From contig JAZKEU010000012.1 of assembly GCA_040386775.1 (NCBI GenBank), forward strand, positions 1 through 64,000: 64,000 nucleotides of DNA, given 5' to 3'. Positions 4,083 to 34,595 of the stretch are shown in pieces. The notes beneath the pieces were generated by a model, which saw nothing but the letters and a program-made list of their open reading frames with translations, did not search any database and was not told the DNA's origin. Positions within the stretch are counted from its first letter, which is position 1, and every line of letters starts with the position of its first letter. A program made the translations under genes and the position numbers. Source of the stretch: Bdellovibrionota bacterium. GTDB lineage: Bacteria; Bdellovibrionota; Bdellovibrionia; Bdellovibrionales; JAEYZS01.

Positions 4083-4221
4083 GTCCTACCTCGAGAGTTT
4101 TAATACTTCCTTATATTTATATCACAAAACGCTTCCCTTTTACCCCAATTTCTTTTTATTCTCAACAACGGTCCAAAGACATTAGTCTATGACCACATTG
4201 TCAGAAATAGGAGTGCGTGTG

Positions 4222-7533: not shown

Positions 7534-9867
7534 TTATTTTCTTTTTTCAAAAATAAAACGTGGACGCATTGTAAGTACTAAAGCTGGGAACAACGTTAGT
7601 GCCGCTATAGAGCTTGTAAGCATTGCCGTTGCGATCAAGAAACCCATCCATATATGAATTAGGAATCCCCAAGATATCATCAAAATACCAAAGCCGCCGG
7701 CAACAGCAGAAGATACAAACAATGTGGCCTTGCCTGCAGAACGATAGGCCTTGTGTAACGCATCTTCCTCGGATTGATCTTTACGGAGCTCTTCCCTCAT
7801 CCTGTAGCTCATATAGATGCCATAATCTGCTCCAATACCAACTGCCATTGCCGACACTAGTGCTGTGGCAATTTGAAGTGGAATGGAGAATAAGCCCATC
7901 ACACCAAAATTAACAACAACCGCTGCAATCAATGGCACCAAAATTAGAATTCCTGCAATGAACGATCTAAATACTATTGAGGAAACTAAAAATACTGCGA
8001 AGAGGATCTGAGCAATATTCAAAATTTTCTCACGAATCATTACTTCGTTCAGAGCAACGCCATTGACGGCACCACCTCCAATATCAACTGAAATTTCTGG
8101 TGGAAAGTTAGTTTTAGCAAATACATTTATTTTTTTAGTTAGATCTTCAATATAGGCACTGCTATCAGTTTTGATAAAAGCTGCTATTATGGTTTTCTTA
8201 CGATCTTTGTCTACCCAGCTATCAAACTCTCCTTCTTCACCGCGTTCCTCAAAAGCTTGAAAGAACGCACCAAGGGTTTCTGGGTCCTCAGGTAACTTAT
8301 AAAACTCTTCCTTATTAACGTTCATAGCCTGATTCATTCGCTTGATAAAATTATTTATGGAAACAGTCTTTCCCACCAATGGCTGTTGTTCTAAAAATTT
8401 TTGAGTTTTTTCTATGCCTTGTACAACAGGGAGTTTCGAAACAGAGTCTGGGATTTTCCCATCTACCAAAACATAGACAACATTTGTTCCTGCTAATTTA
8501 GCGTTTATAAGGGCATCGTCTTTTTTAACTTGTAACGAATCCAAAAAATACTCTTTCTGAGAGTTATCAATTTTTACCCAATAAGCTCCTAACGAAAATA
8601 GAACGAGAAATGCCAAAGATATGATGTAAACAAATTTTCTTTTATTGAAAGCCAAGTTAAAGAAATACTCTGTAATTTTATCCCAAAAAGAAATTTGCTG
8701 TTCGCGCTGACTCTCTTTATCTCCAGGAGGCGGCAGTATTGCCCGCAATGCTGGAATGAATGTCAGCTCAATAACGAGAGCACTCAATACTCCAAAGCCC
8801 GTAAATAGACCGAAAGTTCTGATGGTTTTAATTTCAAAGATAACTAAACTAAAAAAGCCAAGTGCCGCAACTGTACAAGCTACGACCATCACAGGTCCAA
8901 CTTTTGTTAGAGTCTCTTCGACCGCAGCAAAATTCATTTCCTTTAATGAAAGCTCTGGACGTGATTTTTTAATGTGATGGAATTCCTCGTAGTATCTCTT
9001 TAAAATTTGTACAGCGTGACCCGCAGCAATAGCTAAAATAAGTATGGGTGTAGAGGCATTGAAAACATCAAATGACTGGCGCATTAATCCAAGTCCACCG
9101 ATAGCCCAAACTACAGCAAGTAGTGCGGTTACAAGCGGTAAAATTAACGCCTGCTTTGTGCGAAAGGCTTCGTAGTGAATCAATCCAATCAATATTAGAG
9201 CGAGTGGAAATAGAAATGCCATACGCTCAGAAAAAGACTCTAGAGCGGACAGAAAAATAGGCAATCCGCCAATCTCAACATCAATACTGCCGTCCAGTGA
9301 AGGACTGATTGCATCCCGTACGTTCTTTTCAATGGCCTTAAACCCTCCTTCTATCTTTGAAAACTCAGCAATAATCTGAGTGGTTTTTTCATCGTCAGAA
9401 TAAAGCAGTCGTTTAAAAACAGGATCTGAATGGAGCGCATCTTTGAACTGCAGCATCTCCTCCATCGTCTCCGGTGTTTTATCTAGGATCGGCACAGGAA
9501 CAGGTCCCTCCGGAGTGAGTATGATTTGCTTAGCTTTACTTGTTGCTAGGCCATTGATATGGCTTTTGATAGCGCCTGGAGCATTTTCAATTCTCTCGGT
9601 GATTTCTTTTACCCGGTCTAAAAATTGTGTTTGATAAATGTCACCAGACTTTGGAGTGAGCCCAATCACTACTGTAAATTTATTCCCAAAAGTTTTTTCT
9701 ATTAGATCATTCGTTTTTACAAAATGATGGTTGCGAGGCAAAATATTATCTGGATCAATAATTATTTGCAGACCGCTCAATTGAGTTAAAAGTAAAATTG
9801 TGAGTAAACCCGTCAAGACAATTACGGCCTTGCGGTACTTGATCATAAGCTGAATCCAAAAGCGCAT
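7534..9867 (-). CDS. RND-superfamily (MMPL/HpnN-type) lipid exporter
   Basis: A 777 aa integral inner-membrane protein with the duplicated layout of the RND family: one transmembrane helix near the N-terminus, a periplasmic loop of about 190 residues, five helices, a linker, then a second helix, loop (about 150 residues) and five helices. It is shorter than drug-type RND pumps and matches the MMPL/HpnN class, which moves lipids and hopanoids. A conserved GADYGIYMSYR segment lies in the second half, as in sterol-sensing-type exporters. It is the last gene of the run from the type III polyketide synthase, 12 nt after the YceI gene, so I infer export of the polyketide lipid. Confidence 0.88.
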   Translation of the reverse strand: MRFWIQLMIKYRKAVIVLTGLLTILLLTQLSGLQIIIDPDNILPRNHHFVKTNDLIEKTFGNKFTVVIGLTPKSGDIYQTQFLDRVKEITERIENAPGAIKSHINGLATSKAKQIILTPEGPVPVPILDKTPETMEEMLQFKDALHSDPVFKRLLYSDDEKTTQIIAEFSKIEGGFKAIEKNVRDAISPSLDGSIDVEIGGLPIFLSALESFSERMAFLFPLALILIGLIHYEAFRTKQALILPLVTALLAVVWAIGGLGLMRQSFDVFNASTPILILAIAAGHAVQILKRYYEEFHHIKKSRPELSLKEMNFAAVEETLTKVGPVMVVACTVAALGFFSLVIFEIKTIRTFGLFTGFGVLSALVIELTFIPALRAILPPPGDKESQREQQISFWDKITEYFFNLAFNKRKFVYIISLAFLVLFSLGAYWVKIDNSQKEYFLDSLQVKKDDALINAKLAGTNVVYVLVDGKIPDSVSKLPVVQGIEKTQKFLEQQPLVGKTVSINNFIKRMNQAMNVNKEEFYKLPEDPETLGAFFQAFEERGEEGEFDSWVDKDRKKTIIAAFIKTDSSAYIEDLTKKINVFAKTNFPPEISVDIGGGAVNGVALNEVMIREKILNIAQILFAVFLVSSIVFRSFIAGILILVPLIAAVVVNFGVMGLFSIPLQIATALVSAMAVGIGADYGIYMSYRMREELRKDQSEEDALHKAYRSAGKATLFVSSAVAGGFGILMISWGFLIHIWMGFLIATAMLTSSIAALTLFPALVLTMRPRFIFEKRK

Positions 9868-9879
9868 TATATACCAACC

Positions 9880-10467
9880 TTATTTTTGATTATTTTCTTT
9901 GATTATGAAATGTGCACTGATATCTATTGTATCCCGAACAGAGGCTATTGCAATTGAAGGATCTGGAATCTTTAAATCTTTAATTGAAACCTGACCTTTA
10001 ATATCTGCAATCATATCTGAATTCACTTCTACACTTAAAGTCAAAGGATGGTCTTCTCCACGGACATTGATCACTCCCGCAATGTCTTTTCTTGGTCCAC
10101 CAATCTCAATTTTCTGAGACAATTTTATTTGAATCTTGGGATTATGACTTGCATCTAAGCACTGATCCCACATTTTTTCGTTTCTACTATCTATATCAGT
10201 ATCGAGTTCTTTCACATCAAACTCTACAATTGCATCCGATATGAAGTTATTTTTTTTGTTTCCTGAAATAGAGAATTTTTTTACATAACCGGTAAAATGA
10301 CTAGTAAAAATTCCAACTTTTGTACTGGCCATATCAAACTTAATGTATGAGTCTGCTTTCTTTGCATCTTCATAGTTAGAAGAAGAAAAATTGTAACTTT
10401 CAGATTTACTGACTATTGGTGAAAACCAAAATATCATAACTGCAATTAGTAGTAATTTATTTTTCAT
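9880..10467 (-). CDS. YceI-family exported lipid-binding protein
   Basis: A 195 aa protein with a signal peptide (MKNKLLLIAVMIFWFSPIVS) and a YceI-like lipocalin-type domain: an early SYIKFDMASTKVGIFTSHF segment, the DAIVEFDVKELDTD strand pair, and HPKI-like SHNPKIQIKLS, ending in DTIDISAHFIIKE. YceI proteins bind long isoprenoid or other hydrophobic ligands in a beta-barrel in the periplasm. Its gene overlaps the stop of the FAD oxidoreductase gene by four bases and precedes the RND exporter, so a periplasmic carrier for the cluster's lipid product is a reasonable inference. Confidence 0.82.
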   Translation of the reverse strand: MKNKLLLIAVMIFWFSPIVSKSESYNFSSSNYEDAKKADSYIKFDMASTKVGIFTSHFTGYVKKFSISGNKKNNFISDAIVEFDVKELDTDIDSRNEKMWDQCLDASHNPKIQIKLSQKIEIGGPRKDIAGVINVRGEDHPLTLSVEVNSDMIADIKGQVSIKDLKIPDPSIAIASVRDTIDISAHFIIKENNQK

Positions 10468-11651
10468 TGTGCGCTCCTTAAGTTTAGTATCAGTTTTAAA
10501 ATTCCTTTTATTGGTGAATAAATATTTCCAATTATTCCGATGAAGATATCAGCGCGGGCTTGTTTTTTTAGCAAATAACTAGCGACCAATTCAACAAGGC
10601 GAGGTCTGCGAATCAAAAGCTGAAACAAACGGTTCAGAAGGATTTTTTGTCTCAAAACCTTTGAATACTGCTTTTGATAGTTTGTGAAGACTTGCTTTGT
10701 AATCTTTAAGCTTTTCTCTGAATCCCGAATGATTTCCTTCGCTAGAAGTGATGCAGATAGCATAGCATTGTACATCCCCTCTCCAGTTAGAGGATCCACA
10801 AATCCCGCAGCATCTCCTATCAATACAACATTGCGACAAGGAATAATGGACCTTGTCTGATGCTGTATCGGAAATGCAGTACTGATTTTATCTTCTTCCA
10901 AAAATCTTGGAAATCTGGATTTTAAATTGGGAGATTTTTCTAAGTAATAGTTCAGTGCCTCAAAAGGACTGCCTAACTTTCTAAGATCCTCAGCATCCAG
11001 AACCAAAGAAAAGTTAACCTCTTTCTCGCCAGTGGGGTTCACTCCAATATAAGCCCCGTTATCAAATATATGCATCTCTCCTCGGCGAAGATTCTTATCT
11101 TTATTATGTACTAAGACATGAAGTGCTACGCGCTTTCCTGTATTAGGAATATCATTTTGAAATGCCTTAGACACAACCGACCCTCTTCCATCAGCTCCAA
11201 CAACAACGTTGGTTATGAATGAGCCTTGATTGGTCTCAACAATCCATCTGTCAGACTGTTGGGTTATTTTTCGAACCTCCACACCGGTTTTAAATTCTGC
11301 CCCAGATCTTTTTGCGAGGGTTATGATATTTTCATCAAAAATTTGACGGTTCACAGAGACTCCGTGGTATTTCTCTTGAAAAGGAAAAGACGTGTTTACA
11401 CGAGTATCAGAGGCCGTAACAATTAGCATTCCGCTAAGAGGTAAAAATTCTCCGATAATTTCTCGCTCAAGTCCTTCACGCCTTAACAACTCAACACCGA
11501 GTGGGCATAGGTATTCTCCACATACCTTACGCTTAGGCGTTATGTTTTTCTCAAGCACGAGAATTCTCAATCCAATCTTAGAAAGCTTATACGCAAGAAA
11601 CGCACCTGCAGGACCTGCGCCGACTATTATAATATCAAAAATATTATTCAT
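10464..11651 (-). CDS. FAD-dependent oxidoreductase (geranylgeranyl-reductase / flavin monooxygenase type)
   Basis: A 395 aa flavoprotein. The dinucleotide-binding motif IVGAGPAGAFLAYKLS lies at the N-terminus, followed by VLEKN, the CGEYLCP segment typical of the geranylgeranyl-reductase-like group, VVGADGRGS in the middle and LIGDAAGFVDPLTGEGMYNAM near residue 280. The start at 11651 puts the FAD motif at the usual position and leaves four bases after the polyketide synthase stop; an upstream in-frame ATG at 11720 lies inside that gene and is less likely. It probably oxidises or reduces the polyketide product, as flavoprotein hydroxylases do in phenolic-lipid (srs-type) operons; the reaction is inferred. 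Confidence 0.87.
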   Translation of the reverse strand: MNNIFDIIIVGAGPAGAFLAYKLSKIGLRILVLEKNITPKRKVCGEYLCPLGVELLRREGLEREIIGEFLPLSGMLIVTASDTRVNTSFPFQEKYHGVSVNRQIFDENIITLAKRSGAEFKTGVEVRKITQQSDRWIVETNQGSFITNVVVGADGRGSVVSKAFQNDIPNTGKRVALHVLVHNKDKNLRRGEMHIFDNGAYIGVNPTGEKEVNFSLVLDAEDLRKLGSPFEALNYYLEKSPNLKSRFPRFLEEDKISTAFPIQHQTRSIIPCRNVVLIGDAAGFVDPLTGEGMYNAMLSASLLAKEIIRDSEKSLKITKQVFTNYQKQYSKVLRQKILLNRLFQLLIRRPRLVELVASYLLKKQARADIFIGIIGNIYSPIKGILKLILNLRSAQ

Positions 11652-11655
11652 AACT

Positions 11656-12711
11656 CTACTCCCACTTAAGTAAGATACTTTGCCCTGAAAAGCCGGGACC
11701 AAAAGCAAGCATATATCCAAGTTCTCCAGCGTTGTGAGGTTTCATAAGTATGCGTTCTAAAATATGCAGAATCGTAGCACTCGAGAGATTACCTCTTTCT
11801 TTCAGAACTGCTTTTGAGTCGGAAATGTCTTTTCCAAATTGAGTAATGTATTCCTCAACTCGATTGATGATTTTTTTACCGCCCGGATGGAACATATAAT
11901 TATGAATATCTTCGACTTTTAAATTATTTCTTTCTAAGAATGGAAGAAACAGCTTTGGAAAGTGTTCTTGAATGGTATCTGGGACATCACGATCAAGTAC
12001 AATTTTAAGACCTGAGTTTCTCAACTCATATCCCATAAGATGAGTTGTATTTGCAAAGTGATACATATCTGTATCCACAATTACGGGAGCAACTCTACTA
12101 TCATCCCTTCCCAAGATAACTGCGGCCGCACCATCCGCAAAAATCGCTGTGCTAACAAGGTTCTCCATAGAAAAGTCATCTTTTTGGAATGTGATACTTG
12201 GTAATTCAACAGAGACAACTGCAGCCTTAGAATTGGGATGTGCTTTTAAATAATCATTTGCATACATAAGAGCCGAAACTCCTGCCGCACATCCCATTTC
12301 TGTTACAGGAAGGCGTTTAATGTTTCTATTCAAACCCAACTTATCAATGAGATAAGCATCAACTGATGGAATCATAAATCCCGTGCAACTTGTGGTAACA
12401 ATAAAGTCCAACTCCTCTGGTCGAGTACCGCTATCAGCTAGTGCTTTTTTTAGTGCACGCTCTGCCATATCTATTGCTGCTTTAATGTACAGATTATTTT
12501 TTTCTTCAAAACTGATGCTAGCAAAAACTGTTTCGAGAGGAAATGCCGACTGGCGCTTTTGGATATCTGCACCTGCAAATATTTTTAAAGCAATACGTCT
12601 CATATCGGGATTGATATGACTTAGCCAAAGTTCATCCGCCGCCTTTACAATTTCTGCAGTTGTATATTCAAAACCTGGTTGCACTGTTGAGACACATAGT
12701 ATTTTAGACAT
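11656..12711 (-). CDS. Type III polyketide synthase (chalcone/stilbene synthase family)
   Basis: Homodimeric ketosynthase that extends an acyl starter with malonyl-CoA and cyclises it, giving alkylpyrones or alkylresorcinols in bacteria. The Cys-His-Asn triad is visible: Cys141 in EMGCAAG, His in YMFHPGGKK and Asn in ERGNLSSAT. TTSCTGFMIPS and the closing FGPGFSGQSILLKW are family signatures. ATG 12711 is preferred because GAGG sits 5 nt upstream; GTG 12717 is an alternative. The starter is not readable from the sequence, though the lipid-type export genes downstream suggest a fatty acyl starter. First gene of the cluster, with a LuxR-type regulator divergent from it. Confidence 0.93.
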   Translation of the reverse strand: MSKILCVSTVQPGFEYTTAEIVKAADELWLSHINPDMRRIALKIFAGADIQKRQSAFPLETVFASISFEEKNNLYIKAAIDMAERALKKALADSGTRPEELDFIVTTSCTGFMIPSVDAYLIDKLGLNRNIKRLPVTEMGCAAGVSALMYANDYLKAHPNSKAAVVSVELPSITFQKDDFSMENLVSTAIFADGAAAVILGRDDSRVAPVIVDTDMYHFANTTHLMGYELRNSGLKIVLDRDVPDTIQEHFPKLFLPFLERNNLKVEDIHNYMFHPGGKKIINRVEEYITQFGKDISDSKAVLKERGNLSSATILHILERILMKPHNAGELGYMLAFGPGFSGQSILLKWE

Positions 12712-12823
12712 AATCACCTCTTTATTGATTTGAACTAATGCTATTTTCGCAACTATTTCTGATATGTGAAATCCGATGAATGTCTTAAGAAAATTCTTTT
12801 ATATTACGGTAATTTGCATCTAC

Positions 12824-23804: not shown

Positions 23805-25199
23805 TTAGCTGGCTCGCAATTTGAGAATGCTTTCTCTCTTTTCATATTTATTGAAAAACACATGATAATACACGTGATCAATTTCTGGGAAATTTCTAAC
23901 TTTTAAATCTAACTCCAGTGTATCCCATTTTTTAAACATTCTATGATTGTCTTCAAAATGCCGAGATAACGTAGATTGCAAAACAACTACTGATTGCGTA
24001 GGAGCAATTTTACTCTTAATAGTCTTTGAATAAGTCTCGAGCCTAGACGATAAGATAATAGTTCTACCGCTAATATCTAGCTCTTTGCGATGTTCATCGC
24101 CGTGTACACTTACAGTTACGTCCCCTTCAGCTACTCCGATTCCTAAAGCCATATTCTCTGTGACATCATACTTTTGTTTCAAAGTATCAAATTGATAAGC
24201 TAAGGTTGCCATTGCCGCTAATGCATTCGTAAACCTCGCTCTACCAAGCTTTATTTCTGCAGCAAGCCCTTCAGTATCATAACCAGGTAAGTCTTTTAAG
24301 TCTGGAGATTCATCCATAACGCCGAATGAAACCATATGCCCATCACCGCTCGTTTTGTGCAAATAGCCGCCTTTATCATTGAATATCTTAGATACGTTGG
24401 CGTGATATTCATTCATAAAGTCTTTAACTAATTGCTCACTGTTTTTATTAGAAAATTCTGAATAATTCCTGATATCCACCATGACAATTATAGCATCAAC
24501 TTTTCTTTCTTTTAATAAGTCTTCGTTTTGCTCATAAAGAGCTTTTGTAAGCCTGTCTCCTAAGAATGGAGCAGCAGATCTTTTCACTTTAATATCGAAA
24601 GTAGCAATCTTTAATCTAAGTTTGTAAATTTGAAGAGCAATAATAATTGATGCAACAAAAGCAATCCCTAAATCACTCAAGACTGTCTTCAGTAAAATAA
24701 AACTGTTATTTTTATATAACATCCATGCCAATGGTGCGACAAAGATTGTTGTTAAAGTTAGACCTTGAAAATATAGATATTTAGGCGGTGGTGACACTGT
24801 AAGAAAACACATCGTAATAATAAATGCATTTGCCGAGTGAACATACAAAATAATCTCTGATTGCCCTGAATAAATTATTGGCCACACGTGAATAAAACAG
24901 GCAGAAACCAGAATCAGCGGTAGTCCAAATGTCCACATTATCACTTTTAGCTTAACGTTGTCTTGATAGTTTCTAAAATAATACCAAAAAAGACCAAGCG
25001 GTATTGTGTTAAAAATAAATCTTGGCCATACGTTGTTTAGCAATGTTAATTCCGGATGAAATGTCGTAATAAATTCGTAACTACTAAAGCCATAGATAGT
25101 AAACGCAACACAAAATATACCACTGAGAATGCCAGCTCTACTGACCACTCCTCTAAGAAGACTTTCATTTACTTTTAGTAAATCTTCATTGTTTAACAA
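23805..25199 (-). CDS. Membrane-bound class III adenylate/guanylate cyclase
   Basis: A 464 aa protein. The N-terminal half has about six membrane helices (residues 18-195). The C-terminal half is a class III nucleotide cyclase: the first metal Asp is in VMVDIRNYSEFS, the second in KTSGDGHMVSFG, and the dimer-arm and product strand regions follow. It makes cAMP or cGMP; the nucleotide cannot be read with certainty. The membrane half presumably senses a ligand or membrane state, since no HAMP or receiver is present. It is the last gene of a three-gene run (26686 to 23805), one base after the stop of its neighbour. Confidence 0.87.
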   Translation of the reverse strand: MLNNEDLLKVNESLLRGVVSRAGILSGIFCVAFTIYGFSSYEFITTFHPELTLLNNVWPRFIFNTIPLGLFWYYFRNYQDNVKLKVIMWTFGLPLILVSACFIHVWPIIYSGQSEIILYVHSANAFIITMCFLTVSPPPKYLYFQGLTLTTIFVAPLAWMLYKNNSFILLKTVLSDLGIAFVASIIIALQIYKLRLKIATFDIKVKRSAAPFLGDRLTKALYEQNEDLLKERKVDAIIVMVDIRNYSEFSNKNSEQLVKDFMNEYHANVSKIFNDKGGYLHKTSGDGHMVSFGVMDESPDLKDLPGYDTEGLAAEIKLGRARFTNALAAMATLAYQFDTLKQKYDVTENMALGIGVAEGDVTVSVHGDEHRKELDISGRTIILSSRLETYSKTIKSKIAPTQSVVVLQSTLSRHFEDNHRMFKKWDTLELDLKVRNFPEIDHVYYHVFFNKYEKRESILKLRAS

Positions 25200-25200
25200 A

Positions 25201-26094
25201 CTACGACCCGTGATTTAATGTTTTAATTAATAATTGCGCCATTGTATCTTTTTGTTTTTCTAACTTTAGTGTTTCAGAAGAATAGTAATTATTTGCTTCT
25301 TCTTGATTCATAATCGTACTGCCATTTGGAATGTTAGAGCCAGGAGGTAGAACTACATTATTACCAATGATTGTTTTTAACCCCAAGTATGTATGAGAAC
25401 CAATATCACAATTATCGCCAATAACTACACCATGGTTAATTGCGCATGTTGGTTTAATTATTGAAGATGTACCCATTCTTACCCTAATTCCTAAAGCCGT
25501 TCCAACACCAACCTCACTCTTAGCCGCTATTTTGCACCCTGGGGCCACCATTGCCAAATGACCAATCATAGCTGAATTACCCGTTGTAATTCCGTCAACT
25601 AAAATTGTTCCATCATTAAGACAAATATTAGAGCCAATCGTGGCACGATTAGACAAATAAGTTTTTGGAGAAAATTTTAATAGAGGTAAATCTCTAATCC
25701 ACGTGTCTGGATAAATAGTTATATCCATCGATCCTTTATATCCAAACAATCTAAATACAATTTTTTTTAAAATAGGAATCGAAATAACAACTGAATAGAT
25801 AGGTTTAAAATAAAATAACTGAGTCCAGCAAATACCATATATTCTTCTTTTGAAGTAAACAGGATGATCTAAATCTCTAGGAAACTTGCCTCTTTTAATC
25901 CCAGATTTACCGATTAAGCTCACCACTCCAGCGATGATCGTAGAGGTAAAAACAAATAATAATAAACCTAATGCTATCAAACTTAAATTGACTATCTTTG
26001 AACTACTATCCACTAGTAAGTATGGGGTGGATGATATTACAAATGAACCTAGCCATATAACTGTAATGATTGAGGCAGGAATAATATTATTCAT
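25201..26094 (-). CDS. Left-handed beta-helix (hexapeptide repeat) acyltransferase-like membrane protein
   Basis: A 297 aa protein with two membrane helices (about 5-25 and 36-60), a linker with basic residues, another hydrophobic patch and then hexapeptide repeats from about residue 135 to 265 (for example IGSNICLNDGTILVDG, IGHLAMVAPGCKI, VGVGTALGIRVRMG, IGDNCDIGSHTYLG). This fold is shared by acyl- and acetyltransferases. The sequence has His residues in GHLAM and NHGVV that could be catalytic. Substrate unknown. Lying between a cyclase and an unknown protein near an alpha-oxoamine synthase operon, it could modify a lipid or signal molecule; that is inference. Confidence 0.75.
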   Translation of the reverse strand: MNNIIPASIITVIWLGSFVISSTPYLLVDSSSKIVNLSLIALGLLLFVFTSTIIAGVVSLIGKSGIKRGKFPRDLDHPVYFKRRIYGICWTQLFYFKPIYSVVISIPILKKIVFRLFGYKGSMDITIYPDTWIRDLPLLKFSPKTYLSNRATIGSNICLNDGTILVDGITTGNSAMIGHLAMVAPGCKIAAKSEVGVGTALGIRVRMGTSSIIKPTCAINHGVVIGDNCDIGSHTYLGLKTIIGNNVVLPPGSNIPNGSTIMNQEEANNYYSSETLKLEKQKDTMAQLLIKTLNHGS

Positions 26095-26095
26095 A

Positions 26096-26686
26096 TTAAC
26101 CCACTTTCTCTAAATTATATTTTCTTACTGTATTCGTATCATTTGTAAATTCATGTAATAGTTTTTCTATATCAACTCTGTCTGCTAACATTCTATTTTT
26201 ATCTGAAGTAACACAATGAATACCTGATTGTTTTAAAATTAACTGTACCCAAGGAGACAATGTTAAAATTGCATCCTGATAACTGCACCCATTAATCTCC
26301 AATTGCTCTCCAACTGACAAATCTTTTTGAGGCTTATTTGATTGACTCAGCAATGCTCTCAATAACTGAGAAACTCCCACAAATACGCTGCACCCTGAAT
26401 CGAATTTAGTTAATACAATTGCAGCAGCTGTCAGGATCAATGCATCTTCTTTGAAGTTTTCAGATTTATTTTGCAATACGAGAATCCATTCTTCATTATT
26501 ACTCTGCTCAACCAATAAATGAAATATCTCAGAAATTTTATAAATAATTTCTATATCAACATTTTTTATGGCCATGAACACATAGGGCTTTGTATTTTGG
26601 ATTAATTGATCATGATTTAATCCTTTTAAATCACCTTCTGATTCTTCGTCTTTTTTAAGTTCTCTTATATTATTCAGCTTTAGCAT
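26096..26686 (-). CDS. Cytosolic protein of unknown function, cyclase operon
   Basis: About 196 aa from ATG 26686, which has AAGG 5 nt upstream; ATG 26704 is the alternative. No signal peptide or membrane helix. A central part (YVFMAIKNVDIEIIYKISEIFHLL ... EEWILVLQNKS, then AAAIVLTKFDSGCSVFVGVSQLLRALL) alternates strands and helices and could be a small alpha/beta domain. I do not recognise a family. It is first in a three-gene run with one-base gaps, so it probably belongs to the same signalling task as the beta-helix protein and the cyclase. Confidence 0.6.
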   Translation of the reverse strand: MLKLNNIRELKKDEESEGDLKGLNHDQLIQNTKPYVFMAIKNVDIEIIYKISEIFHLLVEQSNNEEWILVLQNKSENFKEDALILTAAAIVLTKFDSGCSVFVGVSQLLRALLSQSNKPQKDLSVGEQLEINGCSYQDAILTLSPWVQLILKQSGIHCVTSDKNRMLADRVDIEKLLHEFTNDTNTVRKYNLEKVG

Positions 26687-26704
26687 ATCAACCTTTATAT
26701 ACAT

Positions 26705-26943: not shown

Positions 26944-27192
26944 ATGCACACGACACCAGAAACAATTATACAACAAATTTCTCTTTTTCTAGAGAAAAAT
27001 AAAAAATTAGAGACCCAATATTTCTTGATTAAAAACCTAGAATACAAACTTGTAGAAAGCATATTAAATAAAGAGCACCAAGAGATTGGAGAGATAATAC
27101 TGATCTATAAATTAAAAACTCAAGCAGCTTTAGAAACCTGCTTGAGGCTGTCTATGTCTTCAGGCTTAACTCTATCACTTGGTATTAAATAG
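26944..27192 (+). CDS. Possible small helical protein
   Basis: A start at ATG 26944 is preceded by AGGAGGTAGA, the most consensus-like ribosome site in the region, which is the main argument for a real gene. The 82 aa product begins MHTTPETIIQQISLFLEKNKK and is mostly helical. Its last 24 codons overlap the end of the receiver-cyclase gene on the opposite strand by 73 bases, which argues against strong conservation there. A longer reading from 26890 adds 18 residues but has no ribosome site. No family recognised. Confidence 0.4.
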   Translation: MHTTPETIIQQISLFLEKNKKLETQYFLIKNLEYKLVESILNKEHQEIGEIILIYKLKTQAALETCLRLSMSSGLTLSLGIK

Positions 27193-28316
27193 AGTTCTGC
27201 CATATTGCTCTGACCTAAAAATTTATGACTTCCCAAAGCGATAATATTCTCTGGTTTTTGGTTCAAGCCATGTAGGAAATCTTTTGTCATGATAATATTT
27301 GTGCCAGGTAACGTGTGGACAAATTTTTCTATTCTGTGCAGTAAATCGATATCAGATGAAGTTGTATCAAATGATTTTTGAATGATATTTCCCTTAGGAG
27401 TATTCAATTGAACAGTATGTATATCCACGACACTGTCTTTGGCTGTGTGCAATGCAATGCCACACTCTACGCTTATGTTATTCACTGAACAGAGACTTCT
27501 TAAAGCAACTCTGAACTCACGTGCTACCGCTAAGGCTGCCTCACGGGGATTTTGTGAGTCTTCGAATAGTCCGAAATGACCGTAGGCTGAATCTCCCGTG
27601 TGAGACTCTCTCCATCCGCCATGCTTAATGATCAACTCAGAGAACAATCTAATAATTTCTCCCCTGAGTGATTTTTCTTTAACTTTAATTTCGTGAATCG
27701 CACTGCTATTGATAATGTCAAAAGTAATTCCTACGATGTCTTTCTTCATAGGAAATTTAATTTTGTTATCGTTGATTGCCCAAAGCACAAAAGGCGGAAC
27801 CCAACACTCAAGTTCTTGTCTCATTTTTATTTCATTCTTATTGGCTTTTTCAAGGTCTACGGTCATCTGAAGGAGCTCGTTGTTGCGAGTTTTAAGCTCT
27901 TCTTCTCTTTTCTTAACTTCTTCTTGTAGCCTAATTCTTTCAGTGTCCGTTTTGTAAAACTCTATGCCTCTTGCTAAACTTTTTTCAAGATCGTCGTAGT
28001 CCCAAGGCTTTCTGATATAGTCGAAAACCTTTGCTCTTCTTACCGACTCCACAACCAGATTTTCATCTGAATAGCCTGTCACAATCATTCTTACAGCGTT
28101 CGGATGAAGCTTCATTGATAGTTCTAAAAATTCTACACCAGAAATATTTGGCATTCTTTGATCAGAAACAATAATCCAAGGAGTTTTTTTGTCCATTTCC
28201 TTTAGAGCTTGCATTGGATTGTCAAAAGTAAGCACCTCCCACTCATCTCCGAGTGCGGCCTCAAATACTGTCAAATTATGTGGTTCGTCATCCACATAAA
28301 AAATGAGCGGCTTCAT
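27120..28316 (-). CDS. Response regulator with class III nucleotide cyclase output
   Basis: A 398 aa protein. Residues 1-120 are a CheY-like receiver with Asp9/Asp10, phosphoacceptor Asp52 in VSDQRMP, Thr80 and Lys103 in RKPWD. A coiled coil (about 125-170) leads to a class III cyclase domain (about 172-390) with metal Asp200 in GITFDIINSS and Asp242 in THTGDSAYGHFG. Phosphorylation would therefore drive cAMP or cGMP synthesis. Its ATG overlaps the stop of the histidine kinase gene by four bases, so the cognate kinase is almost certainly that neighbour. Last gene of the PilZ-synthase/kinase/cyclase run. Confidence 0.9.
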   Translation of the reverse strand: MKPLIFYVDDEPHNLTVFEAALGDEWEVLTFDNPMQALKEMDKKTPWIIVSDQRMPNISGVEFLELSMKLHPNAVRMIVTGYSDENLVVESVRRAKVFDYIRKPWDYDDLEKSLARGIEFYKTDTERIRLQEEVKKREEELKTRNNELLQMTVDLEKANKNEIKMRQELECWVPPFVLWAINDNKIKFPMKKDIVGITFDIINSSAIHEIKVKEKSLRGEIIRLFSELIIKHGGWRESHTGDSAYGHFGLFEDSQNPREAALAVAREFRVALRSLCSVNNISVECGIALHTAKDSVVDIHTVQLNTPKGNIIQKSFDTTSSDIDLLHRIEKFVHTLPGTNIIMTKDFLHGLNQKPENIIALGSHKFLGQSNMAELYLIPSDRVKPEDIDSLKQVSKAA

Positions 28317-30180
28317 GCGACTTTATCCTTTGCTCCAGCTATATCACTTATCGGTAATCTTATCGTAAACTTGGTTCCTTCATTAATTACAGAACTAACG
28401 TCTATAGCTCCAGAGTGTTTTTTAATTTCATTCAAGACTATGTGCAAGCCTAGTCCAGTCCCTTTTCCCACAGGCTTAGTCGTAAAAAATGGATCAAAGA
28501 TCTTACTTTGAATATTTTCAGGAATTCCGTGTCCTGTATCACTCACCTCTACCACAACAAATTTATCCACTTCTTGAGCTTTAATATCGAGCGTACCACC
28601 ATCAGGCATTGCATCTATAGAGTTAGAGATTAAGTTCATCAGCACTTGATTCAGGCCAACCACACTACCGTATACTTTTAAATTATTAGGAATGTCTAAA
28701 TTGACTTTGATTTTATTTGAAATTTTATTTTTTTGAATCGTAAGTACGGAGTTTATAATTTCATCTATATTTAAGTCATTGAATTGAGCTTGGTTTAATC
28801 CTGTATAATTTCTTAGACTCTTGATAATATCTATTGTTAAACCTAGACCTTCTTTCATAACTTTCATTAATTTTTCAGTCTTATTTTTAGAAGATTCATC
28901 TGTAATATTTTTCTCAATAATTCTTTCTAGAGGAACCAGTGCTCCATTGACATAATTCACAGAATTGTTAATCTCATGAGCAATACCTGCCGCCAAAGTA
29001 CCCAGGGAAGCCAGCTTAGCTGTTTGAACCAATTCGGCTTGAGTTGTTTTGAGTTCTAGCATGGTCTTTTCTAAATCAACGGTTTTATTTTTTAATTCAA
29101 TCGTTTTTCTATTAACCTCTAGCTCTAGATTTTCTCTGAGATAATCTCTTTCTTGGTAAGTCTGATTAATCTCGGTTTGAAGTGATCTCGTGAAGAAGAA
29201 CACCGTACCTAGAACACCGTATCCAAGAACCATTCCGTAATTATGCAAACCCATTGTATAGCACACATCTAAAGTAGTGGCTCCCGCAAAAGATGATAAG
29301 GCCGCCAAATCAAGGGCCTTAGCCTTCCAAGAGGAATGAATATTAAATCTAAACTCCGAATAAAACGCTATCCATGTGGATAAAACACCAGGAGCAAAAA
29401 TAATATTCAGAAATACTTGAATCGTATCTCCGCTAGATAAGAATGGTATTACCAAAGTTCCAGGAATAGTTAAAAAACAAAATACATAGAATATCTTTTT
29501 TGCTAGTAGCCCTCTAACTTTTAGAAAGCTCACAAATGAAAATGTGGCAACTCCCAAACTGAATGCAGCTATTTTATCTACCAATAGCAAATCAAGTTTT
29601 ATACCAACCAATCCCAATACACTAGATAGAAAAAATGCACTCATAGAAACAGAGAACAATCCTAGATAAACAGACTGCATATATAGAGATTGAGTTTTAA
29701 TTCCAAAAAACAATACCAAGGCGAATACAAATAAAGCACCATAAATAGCTAAATGCTTAATCTCAATTCTATTAATCACTTCAGAATACTTTGATATATA
29801 GGGATAAGAATTAACTTTTGCAAAAAATTTGAAAGGAGAAATCACTATCCAACTTATCTTCTCACCTCGAATAGATTCGCATGGCAGGACCGGAGATCCA
29901 TAAATTGATCTTATGTAGTTTTGTCCCTCATCTCCGTAAGAATATATTAATGATCCATCAATAGAAACTTTCTGGAATGAATGCATCACATTGGGAAAAA
30001 CTAATTTTTGTCCTTCCCTACAATTTAAATCACTAATATTTGCTTGGAATTCTGCTTGATAATTATTTTTTGAATTCTTAGACCAGTCGCTAGTAATTGT
30101 CCACACATTCGAAGCGAAGGCTTGATTGGTGAAAATTAGAATTAGTAGGTAAAAAAAAACCTAAAACCCAATCGGTTCAT
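28313..30180 (-). CDS. 7TM-type sensor histidine kinase with an apparent frameshift in its signal peptide
   Basis: The kinase frame (597 aa from GTG 30106) has a periplasmic region (about 1-115), seven membrane helices (115-310), a coiled coil and HisKA/HATPase_c domains with His in AAGIAHEINNS and the G-boxes DTGHGIPE and GKGTGLGL. The N-terminal signal peptide is encoded upstream: ATG 30180 overlaps the stop of the synthase gene (TAATG) and reads MNRLGFRFFF, then hits a run of nine T (30159-30151); one extra T would continue as YLLILIFTNQAFASNVW into the kinase. As written, the ATG frame stops at 30142. This is either a sequencing error, a phase-variable tract or slippage-dependent expression. 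It lies between the synthase and its receiver-cyclase partner. Confidence 0.82.
30151..30159 (-). repeat. Nine-base homopolymer (T9 on the coding strand) in the kinase leader
   Basis: Nine A on the plus strand, T9 in the sense of the kinase gene. It falls exactly where the ATG-initiated frame and the kinase frame diverge, inside the hydrophobic core of the signal peptide. Tracts of this length are prone to polymerase slippage. Confidence 0.9.
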
Positions 30181-31850
30181 TATGCTGACTCTTTCAGAGC
30201 TATTTCTTTTGGCGCTAGTCCAACTTTTTCCATAGCTCTTTTTATAACTAGCAATGCATAATCCAAATCACTCAATGAATGCTGGGCAGATACGGTAAAC
30301 CTAAATCTACAGGTATTTTTACTTACTGCTGGATAAACCACTGGAATAGTATATATGCCAGAGTCATAAAGGATTTTATACATCTTACCTAATTTTTCTT
30401 CGTCTCCAATAACAACTGGAACAATTGCAGTTTTATGATCTTTTGGAATATCGAATCCCATTTTTCTAAGACCCGATGTAAAGAACTCAATATTCGATCT
30501 TAGTTTACCTAATAACTGTGGTTCGCTTTGAAATAATTCTAATGATTTATTAGTAGCAGCCACTGTTGATGGTGGTAATGCCACACTAAAGAATACAGAT
30601 CTTGCGGAAACGTTTAACCAATCGATAAGCTCTTTTGAACCACAGGCAAATCCACCTATAGTTCCGCAGATTTTAGAGAAAGTTCCCATAGTAAGATCAA
30701 TTCCCCCAAGGAGATTTGATTCTTCCGAAAGACCTAATCCGTTTTTACCAAGCACTCCGAATGAATGCGCTTCATCGATCATTACTCGTGCATCATATTT
30801 TTTAGCTAAACTTACAATATCATTAAGTGGAGCGGCATCACCGTCCATTGAAAACACGCCTTCAGCAACGATCAAACAACCATTCGACTCGTATCGTGTT
30901 CTAGATAAAACTTTCTCTAGATGATCCATATCATTATGCTTAAAAAATCTTTTTACACCTTGAGATAATTGCATACCATCGTAAATTGAAGCATGTGATA
31001 AGATATCAGCAATAACTAAATCATTTGGCCCCACTAAACTACTTATCAATCCTATATTCGCAGCATATCCAGAATTAAATAATGTAGTCGCTTCTGTTCT
31101 AAACATTCTTGATAAAGTTTCTTGCAGTCTTTCATGCTCTTCAGTTTGACCGCATGTGATTGGTGATCCTGTAGCTCCGAAGCCATATTTATCCAAAGCT
31201 ATTTTTGTAGCCTCAACGACTTCAGGACGTGCAGATAAGCCTAGATAATCGTTTGACGACATAACTATGAAATCATTACGACCATCTGATCTTTTTTTAG
31301 TCAATGTAACTCGAATACCTTTACTTGGCTCTCGTGGAATCCAATATCCCCAACGTACAGATTTTTGTAATGAGTTGTGATAGAAGTGATATTTTTTTGC
31401 TTTGTTAAATATATCGACTGATCCATCATCTTTACCAAGGAAGTCAGCCAATGATGAGTTGTCTGAGCTATATTCTAGTTCAGACTTTGCCATGTTTCCT
31501 TCGAGATTCATTTTAAAGCATTTGCTTAATGGACCTTCAATCGGCGCATGACTATCAATAAACATAATTCCTAGAGTAACTTTACTTTCTGACTTATGAA
31601 CGAATTTTACAACAGATCTACCAAACGCCCATTCATTCGCTTCCCAGACAAGCTTTCCTTCAGATAGAACTTGATCTTTTAAAACTGGTAACTCTTCTGA
31701 GGCAACTTGCAATTCAAAAGAAAGTCCGGTCGATGAAACTTCTCTCACCTTACCTAGAATTCTTTCTCCGGAAAGAGAAGTTAAATGAATATTCAACTCT
31801 TGTTTATCTTTTATTTGGTATCGAGTTCTTCTGAGTACTTTTTTTGCCAT
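30180..31850 (-). CDS. PilZ domain fused to alpha-oxoamine synthase (CqsA/SPT-like)
   Basis: A 556 aa fusion. Residues about 5-105 look like a PilZ domain (basic RRTR at 7-10, then EVSSTGLSF near 37-45, close to the D/NxSxxG motif), which in the family binds c-di-GMP. Residues about 145-545 are a complete PLP alpha-oxoamine synthase: SNDYLGL (199-205), His286, Asp359/His362 in DEAHSFG and Schiff-base Lys393 in GTFSK. It would join an amino acid and an acyl thioester. Its stop overlaps the start of a membrane histidine kinase, with a cyclase response regulator after that, as in alpha-hydroxyketone signal loci (CqsA, LqsA). A lipid role is the alternative. Control by c-di-GMP is inferred. Confidence 0.82.
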   Translation of the reverse strand: MAKKVLRRTRYQIKDKQELNIHLTSLSGERILGKVREVSSTGLSFELQVASEELPVLKDQVLSEGKLVWEANEWAFGRSVVKFVHKSESKVTLGIMFIDSHAPIEGPLSKCFKMNLEGNMAKSELEYSSDNSSLADFLGKDDGSVDIFNKAKKYHFYHNSLQKSVRWGYWIPREPSKGIRVTLTKKRSDGRNDFIVMSSNDYLGLSARPEVVEATKIALDKYGFGATGSPITCGQTEEHERLQETLSRMFRTEATTLFNSGYAANIGLISSLVGPNDLVIADILSHASIYDGMQLSQGVKRFFKHNDMDHLEKVLSRTRYESNGCLIVAEGVFSMDGDAAPLNDIVSLAKKYDARVMIDEAHSFGVLGKNGLGLSEESNLLGGIDLTMGTFSKICGTIGGFACGSKELIDWLNVSARSVFFSVALPPSTVAATNKSLELFQSEPQLLGKLRSNIEFFTSGLRKMGFDIPKDHKTAIVPVVIGDEEKLGKMYKILYDSGIYTIPVVYPAVSKNTCRFRFTVSAQHSLSDLDYALLVIKRAMEKVGLAPKEIALKESA

Positions 31851-31870
31851 AATTTATACCTTTTCCATAA

Positions 31871-31980
31871 GCTTATCATCGGCTTATACACTGCTTACTT
31901 AAGCCCGAATACTCGACCTCCGTAGCGAAAATAATTTAAATAGTAAGAAATTTTTAAATAGCGATGAAAGTCGATAAGCC
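31871..31980. promoter_or_regulatory. Divergent control region with repeated GCTTAT elements
   Basis: Between the divergent PilZ-synthase and kinase genes, GCTTATC (31871-31877) and GGCTTATA (31881-31888) form a direct repeat about 10-11 bases apart, and GATAAGCC (31973-31980) is the inverse. The spacing of one helical turn suits a regulator site. The plus-strand kinase has no ribosome site and may have a leaderless transcript. Confidence 0.35.
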
Positions 31981-32039
31981 TAAAGTTCTGAAGTTATAAA
32001 AACCTGGACCTTCTTCTCTATGCTAGTAATATATAAAAT

Positions 32040-33230
32040 ATGAACAAATTTTATTTATCTTTTTGCCTTATAGGAATCGTAGTATTTTTATTTTGGGGAT
32101 ATGTTACTCCAATTACTTGCCCTGGAATTTTAATTGATTCTTTTAGTCATCGTCTGATTGTCTCATCGCCATTTATAACTTTAGTTTTTTGTTATTTAAT
32201 TTTTAGAAATTTAAACATCGAACTGATTGCTTATTTTGGAATTCTCTTGGTAACAGCAGATTATAGTTATTTAGTCGCAGTAAATAAAAATATGGTTCAT
32301 AGCACCGGACTCTATGTAGTACTAACAGCTTGCCTTGCGGTCATTAACAAGCGCTGGTTTTTGTGGCTCTACTCTATATCGTTTTCTCTCTATTGTATTT
32401 ATTGGATTTTAGTATCGGATGTATTTGTAGAGAGAGCTCATTGGGGAAATATGCTGACTTTAATTTTGTTAGCGGCATTTTTCGGGATTTGGAGAATTCG
32501 AGGCTTAGAGCAACTGCAATCAGAATATAAGCAAAACTTAGACAAATCAAAACAACTTGAAGAATTAAATAATATTGCCACACAGGCTGCCCACGATATC
32601 CGCTCTCCAGTTATGGCATTAGAAAACTTCATTAGCTCATTTGATGATATTGATTCTAAGAAGCTAAAAATAGTGTCTGACTCAGCAAAAAGAATCAACG
32701 GAATCGCTGATTTCTTAATGAATGAATACAGAAAAACATTCACAAACCAAATAGAAGTTAGCGAAAGCAAAAATGCTTTTGATGAACAAACAATCAGTGA
32801 ATTGGTTGAGTCCTTAAAAGAAGAAAAGATACTTCTTCAATCAAATTTTAGAAAATATACAATTTTAATTCATGGGAACATAGAATATAAAATTAAGGAT
32901 CCTAAACTACAGTTTGAATTAAAACGTGTTTTATCGAATATAATAAATAATTCTATCGAAGCTTTTGAGGATTCTAGTGGAGTTATAGATTTAATGTTAA
33001 GTGAAAATCAAAATTCTTTTTCTATACAAATTAAAGACAACGGAAAAGGTATCCCGAAAGACATTATCGAAAAATTATTTGAGCGTGGAGTTAGCTTTCG
33101 TAAAGCGACAGGAACCGGACTGGGGCTTGCCCATGCAAAAGAAATTATAGAAAAATTCAATGGCAGGATCGAACTGTCGTCAAAAGTTAATCTCGGCACA
33201 TTGGTTCATGTTTCCATTTCAAAATTCTAA
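32040..33230 (+). CDS. Six-helix membrane sensor histidine kinase (CqsS/LqsS-like layout)
   Basis: A 396 aa protein with six predicted membrane helices in residues 5-155 and very short loops, no periplasmic domain, then a HisKA domain (His185 in AAHDIRSP) and HATPase_c with N-box IINNSIEAFED, G1 DNGKGIPKD and G2 GTGLGLAHAKEI. There is no receiver domain. A compact six-helix input fused to a kinase is the layout of CqsS and LqsS, receptors for alpha-hydroxyketone signals. Divergent from the PilZ-synthase gene with 189 bases between, which supports the signal-receptor reading. No ribosome site lies before the ATG (AATATATAAAAT), suggesting a leaderless mRNA. Confidence 0.87.
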   Translation: MNKFYLSFCLIGIVVFLFWGYVTPITCPGILIDSFSHRLIVSSPFITLVFCYLIFRNLNIELIAYFGILLVTADYSYLVAVNKNMVHSTGLYVVLTACLAVINKRWFLWLYSISFSLYCIYWILVSDVFVERAHWGNMLTLILLAAFFGIWRIRGLEQLQSEYKQNLDKSKQLEELNNIATQAAHDIRSPVMALENFISSFDDIDSKKLKIVSDSAKRINGIADFLMNEYRKTFTNQIEVSESKNAFDEQTISELVESLKEEKILLQSNFRKYTILIHGNIEYKIKDPKLQFELKRVLSNIINNSIEAFEDSSGVIDLMLSENQNSFSIQIKDNGKGIPKDIIEKLFERGVSFRKATGTGLGLAHAKEIIEKFNGRIELSSKVNLGTLVHVSISKF

Positions 33231-33235
33231 TTGAA

Positions 33236-33829
33236 TTAAAAATTTAATTTTAATTTCTTATTAATTAATTTTTGTATATTGGGCTTTAGATGAGAAATCA
33301 TTTGCTTGAGTTTTTTCTTATCTATAGCGTCCCAATTGAGCTCTGGAAATTTTGAGAAGCGATTCCCCTTCCTTGTGGAAATATATAGAGTATCTATTAA
33401 AGATTTTTCGGCTGTTGCCATATTGTATACAAGTTTTCCCTCGTGCACATTAACTCCATTTTGCATAAGACTCGGCTGTATATGAAATAATTCAAATTCA
33501 CCTAATTTATTAAAAAGCTTACGGCCATGCCCCGTCGTAGCAATTTGTATAACCTTTGGGATTTGAGAAATGACGTCATGACGGTGGAGAGCCGTCAAAA
33601 AAGATACATAACCTTGCTCATTCCCTAAAATATATGGAACCGCTCCATATGGAGAATAAAACGGGTGATTCATTTGCGCCCAGATTCCTCTAGTTACGCT
33701 TTGAATTGAATTCGAACCATCCAATTTTTTAAGCTGCCTCGAAGCCGTAGCAATTGGGATACCAAGAGAAAGAGCATACTGCCTGGTCGTAAAAAAAATA
33801 TTTTTATTAAAAAAATCAATCTGATTCAT
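33236..33829 (-). CDS. AbiEi-type antitoxin/transcriptional regulator
   Basis: A 197 aa protein with an N-terminal winged-helix-like part (FFTTRQYALSLGIPIATASRQLKKL, residues 12-36), a short beta wing (SVTRGIWAQM) and a C-terminal domain including SFLTALHRHDVI and MATAEKSLIDTLYIS, the layout of AbiEi antitoxins. In AbiE systems (type IV toxin-antitoxin) the antitoxin represses the operon and neutralises the effect of AbiEii without binding it. It is encoded after the toxin and overlaps it by 14 bases, the reverse of the usual order. Its target is probably the inverted repeat at 34601-34646. Confidence 0.8.
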   Translation of the reverse strand: MNQIDFFNKNIFFTTRQYALSLGIPIATASRQLKKLDGSNSIQSVTRGIWAQMNHPFYSPYGAVPYILGNEQGYVSFLTALHRHDVISQIPKVIQIATTGHGRKLFNKLGEFELFHIQPSLMQNGVNVHEGKLVYNMATAEKSLIDTLYISTRKGNRFSKFPELNWDAIDKKKLKQMISHLKPNIQKLINKKLKLNF

Positions 33830-34595
33830 CTAAATAACCTATAACCGTATTGCAAATATCATCCCAGGCCTTTTTATTACCTAACTGATTTTTTGTTTCT
33901 TCCTCCAAATACTCAATAACCTGTCCCTTGTAATCGGAGTAGTCTAACATAAGTAGAGATGATAGTGCTTTCTCCCGCTCCTCCATAGTCGTATTCCTAG
34001 TGATAGCATCTTTATTTAGATTTCCACTTAAGTAAAAAACATATAGATCAAATACATCTCGCGATTGAACTTCACTGCGACCGCCTAATGCGTGGATTTT
34101 TTGTGCAACAGCCGTTGCAGCACCATAATGACGAGTCTGAAAACTGAGTTTTTTGTATGGAAAAATGATTTCTGGGTTGATAGCTTCTGTAAGAATATCA
34201 AGGTTAGAATTTTTATTTCTACGAGAAAACTCAACCTTTGTTGGGAATTCTTCACCGCTATTATTGACTAAACGAAATCGAAATCTTTGAGTCGTTTCAG
34301 TATGCTTTGCTTTCAAAGGATCATTTATTTTTAAATCGGTAATTCCGTAAGTTTGAAGATTCCTGATTAATGATGGATCTTGTAGGATCTTATAACCGTT
34401 CTTCTTAAGCGTAGCGACACTTCCACCAAAAACATCTATATCCATGTCTTCGGAATACCTAGGACTCCGAAAGAAGAAACGCAAATTTACCCCACCCTTA
34501 AGGACGTACATATTGGGGTCCGATATTTTCATCAGTCTTTCTAAAAAGAGCAAATGAAATACTTCTCTTTGTTGTTTGTCCGTGTAAACAGTCAT
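33816..34595 (-). CDS. AbiEii-type nucleotidyltransferase toxin
   Basis: A 259 aa protein with the AbiEii/AbiGii fold of DNA-polymerase-beta-like nucleotidyltransferases: LKGGVNLRFF (residues 33-42), SEDMDIDVF (48-56) carrying the metal Asp pair, a basic VEFSRR strand and KIHALGGR ... RDVFDLYVF in the C-terminal half. Related toxins (MenT) add nucleotides to tRNA; AbiEii is GTP-binding. First gene of the pair. The ATG has no ribosome site and is 6 bases from the operator arm, so transcription probably begins at or near it (leaderless). Expected roles are plasmid or island stability or phage defence. Confidence 0.85.
   Translation of the reverse strand: MTVYTDKQQREVFHLLFLERLMKISDPNMYVLKGGVNLRFFFRSPRYSEDMDIDVFGGSVATLKKNGYKILQDPSLIRNLQTYGITDLKINDPLKAKHTETTQRFRFRLVNNSGEEFPTKVEFSRRNKNSNLDILTEAINPEIIFPYKKLSFQTRHYGAATAVAQKIHALGGRSEVQSRDVFDLYVFYLSGNLNKDAITRNTTMEEREKALSSLLMLDYSDYKGQVIEYLEEETKNQLGNKKAWDDICNTVIGYLDESD

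Follow-up and report, generated by a model that had tools for sequence, protein, structure and literature searches.

Does a bacterium of the phylum Bdellovibrionota carry a separately built counterpart of the systems in which an alpha-oxoamine synthase is paired with a membrane histidine kinase? The question is raised by a 64,000-nucleotide stretch of contig JAZKEU010000012.1 (positions 1 to 64,000; hereafter "the window"), from a 2.86-Mb genome, in which a synthase of this pyridoxal 5′-phosphate (PLP)-dependent family, with a PilZ-like domain fused to its N terminus, is followed by a membrane histidine kinase and a response regulator that joins a receiver to a class III cyclase-fold domain. 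To our knowledge, the known bacterial systems pairing this enzyme family with kinases are those of CqsA and LqsA, and a preliminary description of the window had read the locus along those lines. No description of the three-gene module was found in literature on PilZ with serine palmitoyltransferase (SPT) or BioF, or on alpha-oxoamine synthases with histidine kinases, and it looks like an undescribed make-sense-respond signalling unit.

The three genes lie head to tail on the minus strand (31850-27120), and their conservation was surveyed in 369 genomes of the phylum, with full-length synthase orthologues defined by E <1e-190 and presence of the N-terminal domain (one orthologue is truncated where its contig ends). 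The synthase was present in 17 genomes; independent family searches found the full-length kinase in 18 (16 shared with the synthase) and the receiver-cyclase in 15 (14 shared), giving Fisher P values for co-occurrence of 1e-21 and 6e-25, which overstate independence as the genomes are related. When all open reading frames (ORFs) around the synthases were compared, synthase, kinase and regulator stood together at 13 loci besides the window; the order is kept at most loci, with gaps of −1 to +17 nt, and at one of the 13 (G008) the regulator is inverted but adjacent. The module is spread across several families, one carrier being a Bdellovibrionaceae metagenome-assembled genome (L047), and its outer neighbours differ at every locus except in one same-genus pair (L040/L041). 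In the two genomes where a kinase but no synthase was detected (G323 and G090), the kinase gene lies at the edge of its contig, and in G323 the C terminus of a regulator directly precedes it; a lone regulator in a genome lacking the synthase (G322) is missing both cyclase metal aspartates. No kinase or regulator was found among the neighbouring ORFs of synthase relatives without the PilZ-like part, so that PilZ fusion and signalling genes go together. By gene order, co-occurrence and presence in several families, synthase, kinase and receiver-cyclase are one functional unit, and the neighbourhood conservation that the preliminary description had offered as a check on its proposal is borne out, with the flanks changing around a constant core.

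All four genes named in that description (the three above and a divergent six-helix kinase) were located where it had placed them, and the overlaps it reported hold in part. Kinase and receiver-cyclase overlap by exactly 4 nt, an overlap shared by nearly all other loci. Upstream, no signal peptide is encoded in the kinase ORF that opens at GTG 30106, in contrast to its orthologues, which are ∼27 residues longer at the N terminus and have a hydrophobic start, and the kinase family profile match extends to 30139, beyond that GTG. Overlapping the synthase stop is an ATG at 30180 that a tract of nine T (30159-30151) puts out of frame; one extra T in the tract gives MNRLGFRFFFYLLILIFTNQAFA, followed by sequence homologous to the orthologues. 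Compared in this way, the true kinase start is probably ATG 30180. A homopolymer sequencing error is the plain explanation, and the frameshift could also be slippage or phase variation; the synthase/kinase overlap is real only if the tract is an error or is slipped through.

That the enzyme is a PLP-dependent alpha-oxoamine synthase, as described, is confirmed by its matches to PF00155 (E 3.6e-51) and to the NCBIfam bioF, KBL and SPT models (1e-111 to 1e-95) and by invariance in 12 orthologues of H286, D359, H362, K393 and R517 (the PLP Lys, Asp and His residues and the carboxylate Arg). All curated cut-offs are missed (score/cut-off in bits: bioF, 371/426; KBL, 349/460; ALAS, 254/339; SPT, 324/500, 317/640 and 264/670). 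The CqsA/LqsA model NF005526 gives 215 bits against a cut-off of 428, less than the BioF, KBL, SPT and ALAS models give, and scores seven gammaproteobacterial CqsA/LqsA members at 482-584. Among solved structures the nearest by sequence is Sphingobacterium SPT (260 bits versus 110 for CqsA), and the nearest by fold is also SPT. The PilZ synthases share 0 of 17 CqsA/LqsA marker columns and 3 of 10 SPT marker columns, and the Arg at position 230 of SPT, KBL and BioF is Pro or Ala in them (literature-numbered active-site positions were off by one column and were used solely for this position).

Phylogeny places the enzyme less sharply than the residues do. A first quick tree of 79 rows rejected a grouping with KBL (approximately unbiased [AU] test, P = 3e-33) and put CqsA/LqsA far away, a placement since superseded, as the AU test showed that the search had missed a better tree. 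The tree was rebuilt without long branches and with more CqsA/LqsA sequences (14 members, nine from a gammaproteobacterial scan, the others annotated plasmids and PDB-verified CqsA). In it the PilZ synthases form one clade (100/99), apart from CqsA/LqsA (100/100) and within an SPT-containing set (95/98). With the long branches removed, 86% of bootstraps join them to three lipid-operon enzymes; 0% join them to CqsA/LqsA alone, a figure that rises to 8% when lipid-operon enzymes may be part of the grouping. The AU test does not reject PilZ synthases and CqsA/LqsA as sisters (P = 0.38; first quick tree, P = 0.80). The phylogenetic check proposed in the preliminary description therefore yields an own clade, its nearest neighbours and the exclusion of KBL, and leaves the deep placement undecided. 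Membership in CqsA/LqsA is better settled by marker residues than by the deep tree, and it was rejected: no signature residue is shared, the score is half the family cut-off, and the enzyme falls outside the 100/100 clade. The claim that the enzyme is of the CqsA/LqsA kind accordingly falls, and, as judged from sequence, the PilZ synthase is its own alpha-oxoamine synthase subfamily.

The PilZ-like domain itself occupies ∼110 N-terminal amino acids. Pfam reports PilZ in 1 of 12 orthologues (E 0.011), and PF07238 finds no match in the window protein, the gathering score not being reached. The [D/E/N]xSxxG motif is conserved, with S39 and G42 invariant, and the Arg motif reads RxxR[F/Y], not the canonical RxxxR. 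AlphaFold models a beta-barrel with seven or eight strands and one short helix (predicted local distance difference test score [pLDDT], ∼80), and hhalign aligns it with PilZ proteins of its own genome at E 6e-4, compared to 0.08 for controls. The near-canonical motif, the model and the profile alignment suggest a PilZ-like domain, as in the earlier assignment, albeit not with certainty. Binding of cyclic di-GMP (c-di-GMP) is plausible, and is put no higher because the Arg motif has RxxR in place of RxxxR. Another alpha-oxoamine synthase with a long N-terminal extension (709 amino acids) was seen on a Methylocystis iwaonis plasmid (L168:3161-5290), within an acyl carrier protein (ACP)/AMP-ligase/polyketide synthase cluster.

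The module kinase has a complete core (HATPase, invariant H377, and N, G1, F and G2 boxes) and ∼7 transmembrane (TM) helices, preceded by a domain with two invariant Cys. None of 15 kinase orthologues matches a 7TMR-DISM Pfam model, and profile alignment of its sensor with those of CqsS/LqsS gives no match (E 0.39). In the regulator, Pfam finds the receiver, with D52, T80 and K103 intact; it calls no cyclase in the window protein and calls one in 3 of 13 orthologues (best E 0.02). The AlphaFold model (pLDDT 87) nevertheless retrieves the class III cyclase fold with Foldseek (E 1e-12 to 1e-9), and the metal aspartates D200 and D242 and Arg328 are invariant in 13 regulators, Asp317 nearly so.

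From these parts a mechanism can be proposed. The synthase would most likely condense a small amino acid with acyl-CoA or acyl-ACP to a lipid-like alpha-amino ketone, and the PilZ-like domain would probably tune it via c-di-GMP or contact with a partner. Operon structure and co-inheritance suggest that the kinase senses the product, or the envelope state that the product creates, and then phosphorylates the receiver; phosphorylation may in turn switch the cyclase-fold domain, of which the fold is shown and the active site altered, to make or bind a cyclic nucleotide. We tentatively favour, with nearly an even chance of its being right, a model in which the SPT-like synthase makes an amino-ketone lipid that the kinase detects, or with which it is co-regulated, and which acts by way of the kinase on the cyclase-type regulator, PilZ supplying a second-messenger input. 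The fuller version, in which a c-di-GMP-gated synthase of the SPT branch makes a sphingoid-like amino-ketone signal that acts through a new class of membrane kinase on a receiver-cyclase response, in parallel to Cqs/Lqs and evolved from lipid enzymes, is rather unlikely.

Four observations weigh against a signalling role of this kind. The closest synthase (60% identity) stands alone in its genome (G126), and hence the kinase is not required for the enzyme to work. In the G047/G124 family a short receiver protein without cyclase lies beside kinase and synthase, and G047 holds two copies of this variant. The kinase start in the window is out of frame. Finally, the cyclase pocket is non-canonical, the purine-binding Lys being mostly Ser and the transition-state Asn being Asp324 (both positions assigned by motif spacing); the domain may take a different nucleotide, have weak activity or serve in binding, and of the nucleotide-cyclase output described earlier the class III fold and metal aspartates stand, with the purine Lys and Asn positions altered. 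In both G047 copies a metallo-beta-lactamase-fold protein was seen next to the short receiver (L028:14841-15788 and L029:139-1071).

The main rival is regulated lipid synthesis: kinase and regulator would sense an envelope or prey cue, the synthase would alter the cell's own lipids (a sphingoid-type amino ketone), PilZ would serve as a c-di-GMP brake, and no signal would be exported. We regard this as a substantial possibility, if more probably wrong than right. It draws on the SPT match in structure and sequence, on the retention of the synthase alone in G126, and on the operons of the nearest synthase relatives, where genes for a UbiA enzyme and a diacylglycerol-kinase-type lipid kinase lie with those for ACP and an NAD-dependent epimerase/reductase. 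At three loci from another family of the phylum (L161, L162 and L163; no ACP ORF was called in L161), operons with UbiA, ACP, an SPT-like alpha-oxoamine synthase, an NAD epimerase and a diacylglycerol-kinase-type kinase were seen, likely an undescribed sphingolipid-type pathway. Against regulated lipid synthesis, genes for a reductase, a ceramide synthase and a lipid kinase are all missing from the module, and an enzyme that was just a target would not be expected to share its operon with a cyclase-type regulator.

The distribution of ceramide genes also bears on this rival. The window holds a second alpha-oxoamine synthase, of SPT type (5492-6784, plus strand; 441/640 bits), adjoined by a GNAT protein (4189-5313, plus strand), and the pair recurs in relatives. 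A GNAT protein beside SPT is what one would expect of bacterial ceramide synthase, as in the Caulobacter pathway. The gene set of Spt, bCerS and CerR has been described (PMC11334938). We infer that the GNAT protein is bCerS, and the pair looks like the start of the normal bacterial ceramide pathway. Of 13 tested genomes with canonical SPT, 12 carry the GNAT; of 13 that have no SPT-like enzyme other than the PilZ synthase, only 2 do, with weak matches. In 11 of the 17 synthase genomes neither a second SPT-like enzyme (at the thresholds used) nor a ceramide-synthase-like GNAT was found (CerR and other ceramide synthases were not searched for). The product is hence unlikely to feed that N-acylation step there, which counts against regulated lipid synthesis, and this pattern of gene content indirectly favours a dedicated product over bulk ceramide in most carriers.

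A true alpha-hydroxyketone quorum system of the CqsA/LqsA type, with CqsS/LqsS-like kinases and a regulator, is very unlikely, its membership being largely refuted. It could account for the clustering of synthase, kinase and regulator, also seen in the Lqs clusters examined, for the non-rejection of a sister relation, and for the shared lack of the position 230 Arg in both synthase clades; it is contradicted by the marker residues, the NF005526 score, the separate clade, the bootstraps and the unmatched kinase sensor. Weakest is the view that an SPT/BioF-like metabolic enzyme merely lies beside an unrelated two-component system: the few genomes where parts occur without one or both partners (G126, G322 and the G047/G124 variant) fit it, but gene order and overlapping frames persist across many genera as the flanks change, and the genes co-occur almost completely over the survey, which makes it highly improbable; the several families and changing flanks likewise counter recent common descent as the cause of co-occurrence.

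The divergent six-helix kinase (Table 1), which the preliminary description had counted to the locus, is a real gene and does not belong to the conserved unit: no orthologue lies beside any module locus, and relatives of its sensor are all but absent from the order. Its likeness to the CqsS/LqsS sensors (E 3.8e-6 with the kinase/coil region included) drops to noise level for the TM part alone (score 21.2 against a shuffled maximum of 20.3). A six-TM domain common to CqsS, this kinase and a membrane cyclase at 23805-25199 (P..YE-S..R motif) was considered, and trimmed profile tests did not support it. That six-TM cyclase keeps the conserved Lys, unlike the module regulator, and belongs to a head-to-tail row downstream of the module (23805-26704, minus strand) with a hexapeptide-repeat transferase, weakly similar to Pls/PosA nonribosomal peptide synthetase terminal domains, and a 202-amino-acid protein of no assigned family. 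Elsewhere in the window, a minus-strand row at 7534-12717 (a type III polyketide synthase resembling DpgA/chalcone synthase, an FAD-dependent reductase, a YceI-like protein and an MMPL/RND transporter) reads as a small polyketide/lipid cluster, and next to the six-helix kinase an AbiEii-type nucleotidyltransferase (PF08843) and, overlapping it upstream, a partner of AbiEi size (33236-34595, minus strand) form a probable type IV toxin-antitoxin pair.

Table 1. Features of the module and the adjoining divergent kinase, in window coordinates.
Feature	Position	Strand	Basis
PilZ-like/alpha-oxoamine synthase fusion, 556 aa	30180..31850	-	Profile searches; full-length orthologues in 17 genomes
PilZ-like N-terminal domain, residues 1-112	31515..31850	-	Motifs, weak Pfam, AlphaFold, hhalign
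PLP alpha-oxoamine synthase domain, residues 190-545, SPT-like, catalytic residues intact	30216..31283	-	Profiles, alignment, trees
Membrane histidine kinase ORF from GTG (Cys-bearing N-terminal domain, ∼7 TM, HisKA-like and HATPase)	28313..30106	-	ORF, Pfam, orthologues
Probable real kinase gene	28313-30180	-	ATG 30180, orthologue starts
T9 tract putting kinase ATG (30180) and signal peptide out of frame	30151..30159	-	Reading-frame comparison
Response regulator, 398 aa: receiver (D52, T80, K103), coiled coil and class III cyclase-fold domain	27120..28316	-	Pfam, AlphaFold, Foldseek
Divergent six-TM histidine kinase; not kept with module in other genomes	32040..33230	+	ORF, Pfam, locus comparison

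If the signalling reading is right, the module would be a second, separately built synthase-kinase system arising from the lipid branch, with sphingoid-type chemistry recruited for bacterial signalling, and it would connect c-di-GMP with cyclic-nucleotide signalling in Bdellovibrio-type bacteria; as a compact three-gene unit it is testable. Bacterial SPT (Sphingobacterium multivorum 3A2B/8GUH; Sphingomonas 2W8J) is closest in fold and sequence among solved structures and shares the catalytic PLP residues, and the SPT-type enzymes of ACP-reductase-lipid-kinase operons are the nearest clade in the tree; the module synthase departs from SPT in its scores, marker columns and position 230, in the PilZ-like fusion and in having no ceramide-pathway neighbours. 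The 7TMR-DISM sensor kinases have the same layout of outward-facing domain, 7 TM helices and kinase core, whereas the module kinase is without a match to their Pfam models. Class III cyclases (OaPAC, bPAC, CyaB, Cya2 and CyaC) share the fold, D200, D242, Arg328 and Asp317 with the regulator, which differs in its Ser/Asp324 pocket and in being receiver-driven. Like LqsA-LqsS-LqsR of Legionella and CqsA-CqsS of Vibrio, the module combines, in one gene cluster, a PLP alpha-oxoamine synthase with two-component partners (membrane histidine kinase, response regulator), and the parallel drawn in the preliminary description survives in this clustering and fails for the synthase and kinase families. 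The module synthase belongs to another clade, without the signature residues and with the PilZ-like fusion; its kinase has a Cys-bearing N-terminal domain and ∼7 TM helices, compared to the six-TM sensor of CqsS/LqsS; and its regulator ends in a class III cyclase fold, while the C-terminal part of LqsR resembles no known output (PMC3376566). The make-sense-switch logic is that of Lqs/Cqs (PMC3376566), and by this analogy the module would work like the Lqs/Cqs clusters while not being built from their parts.

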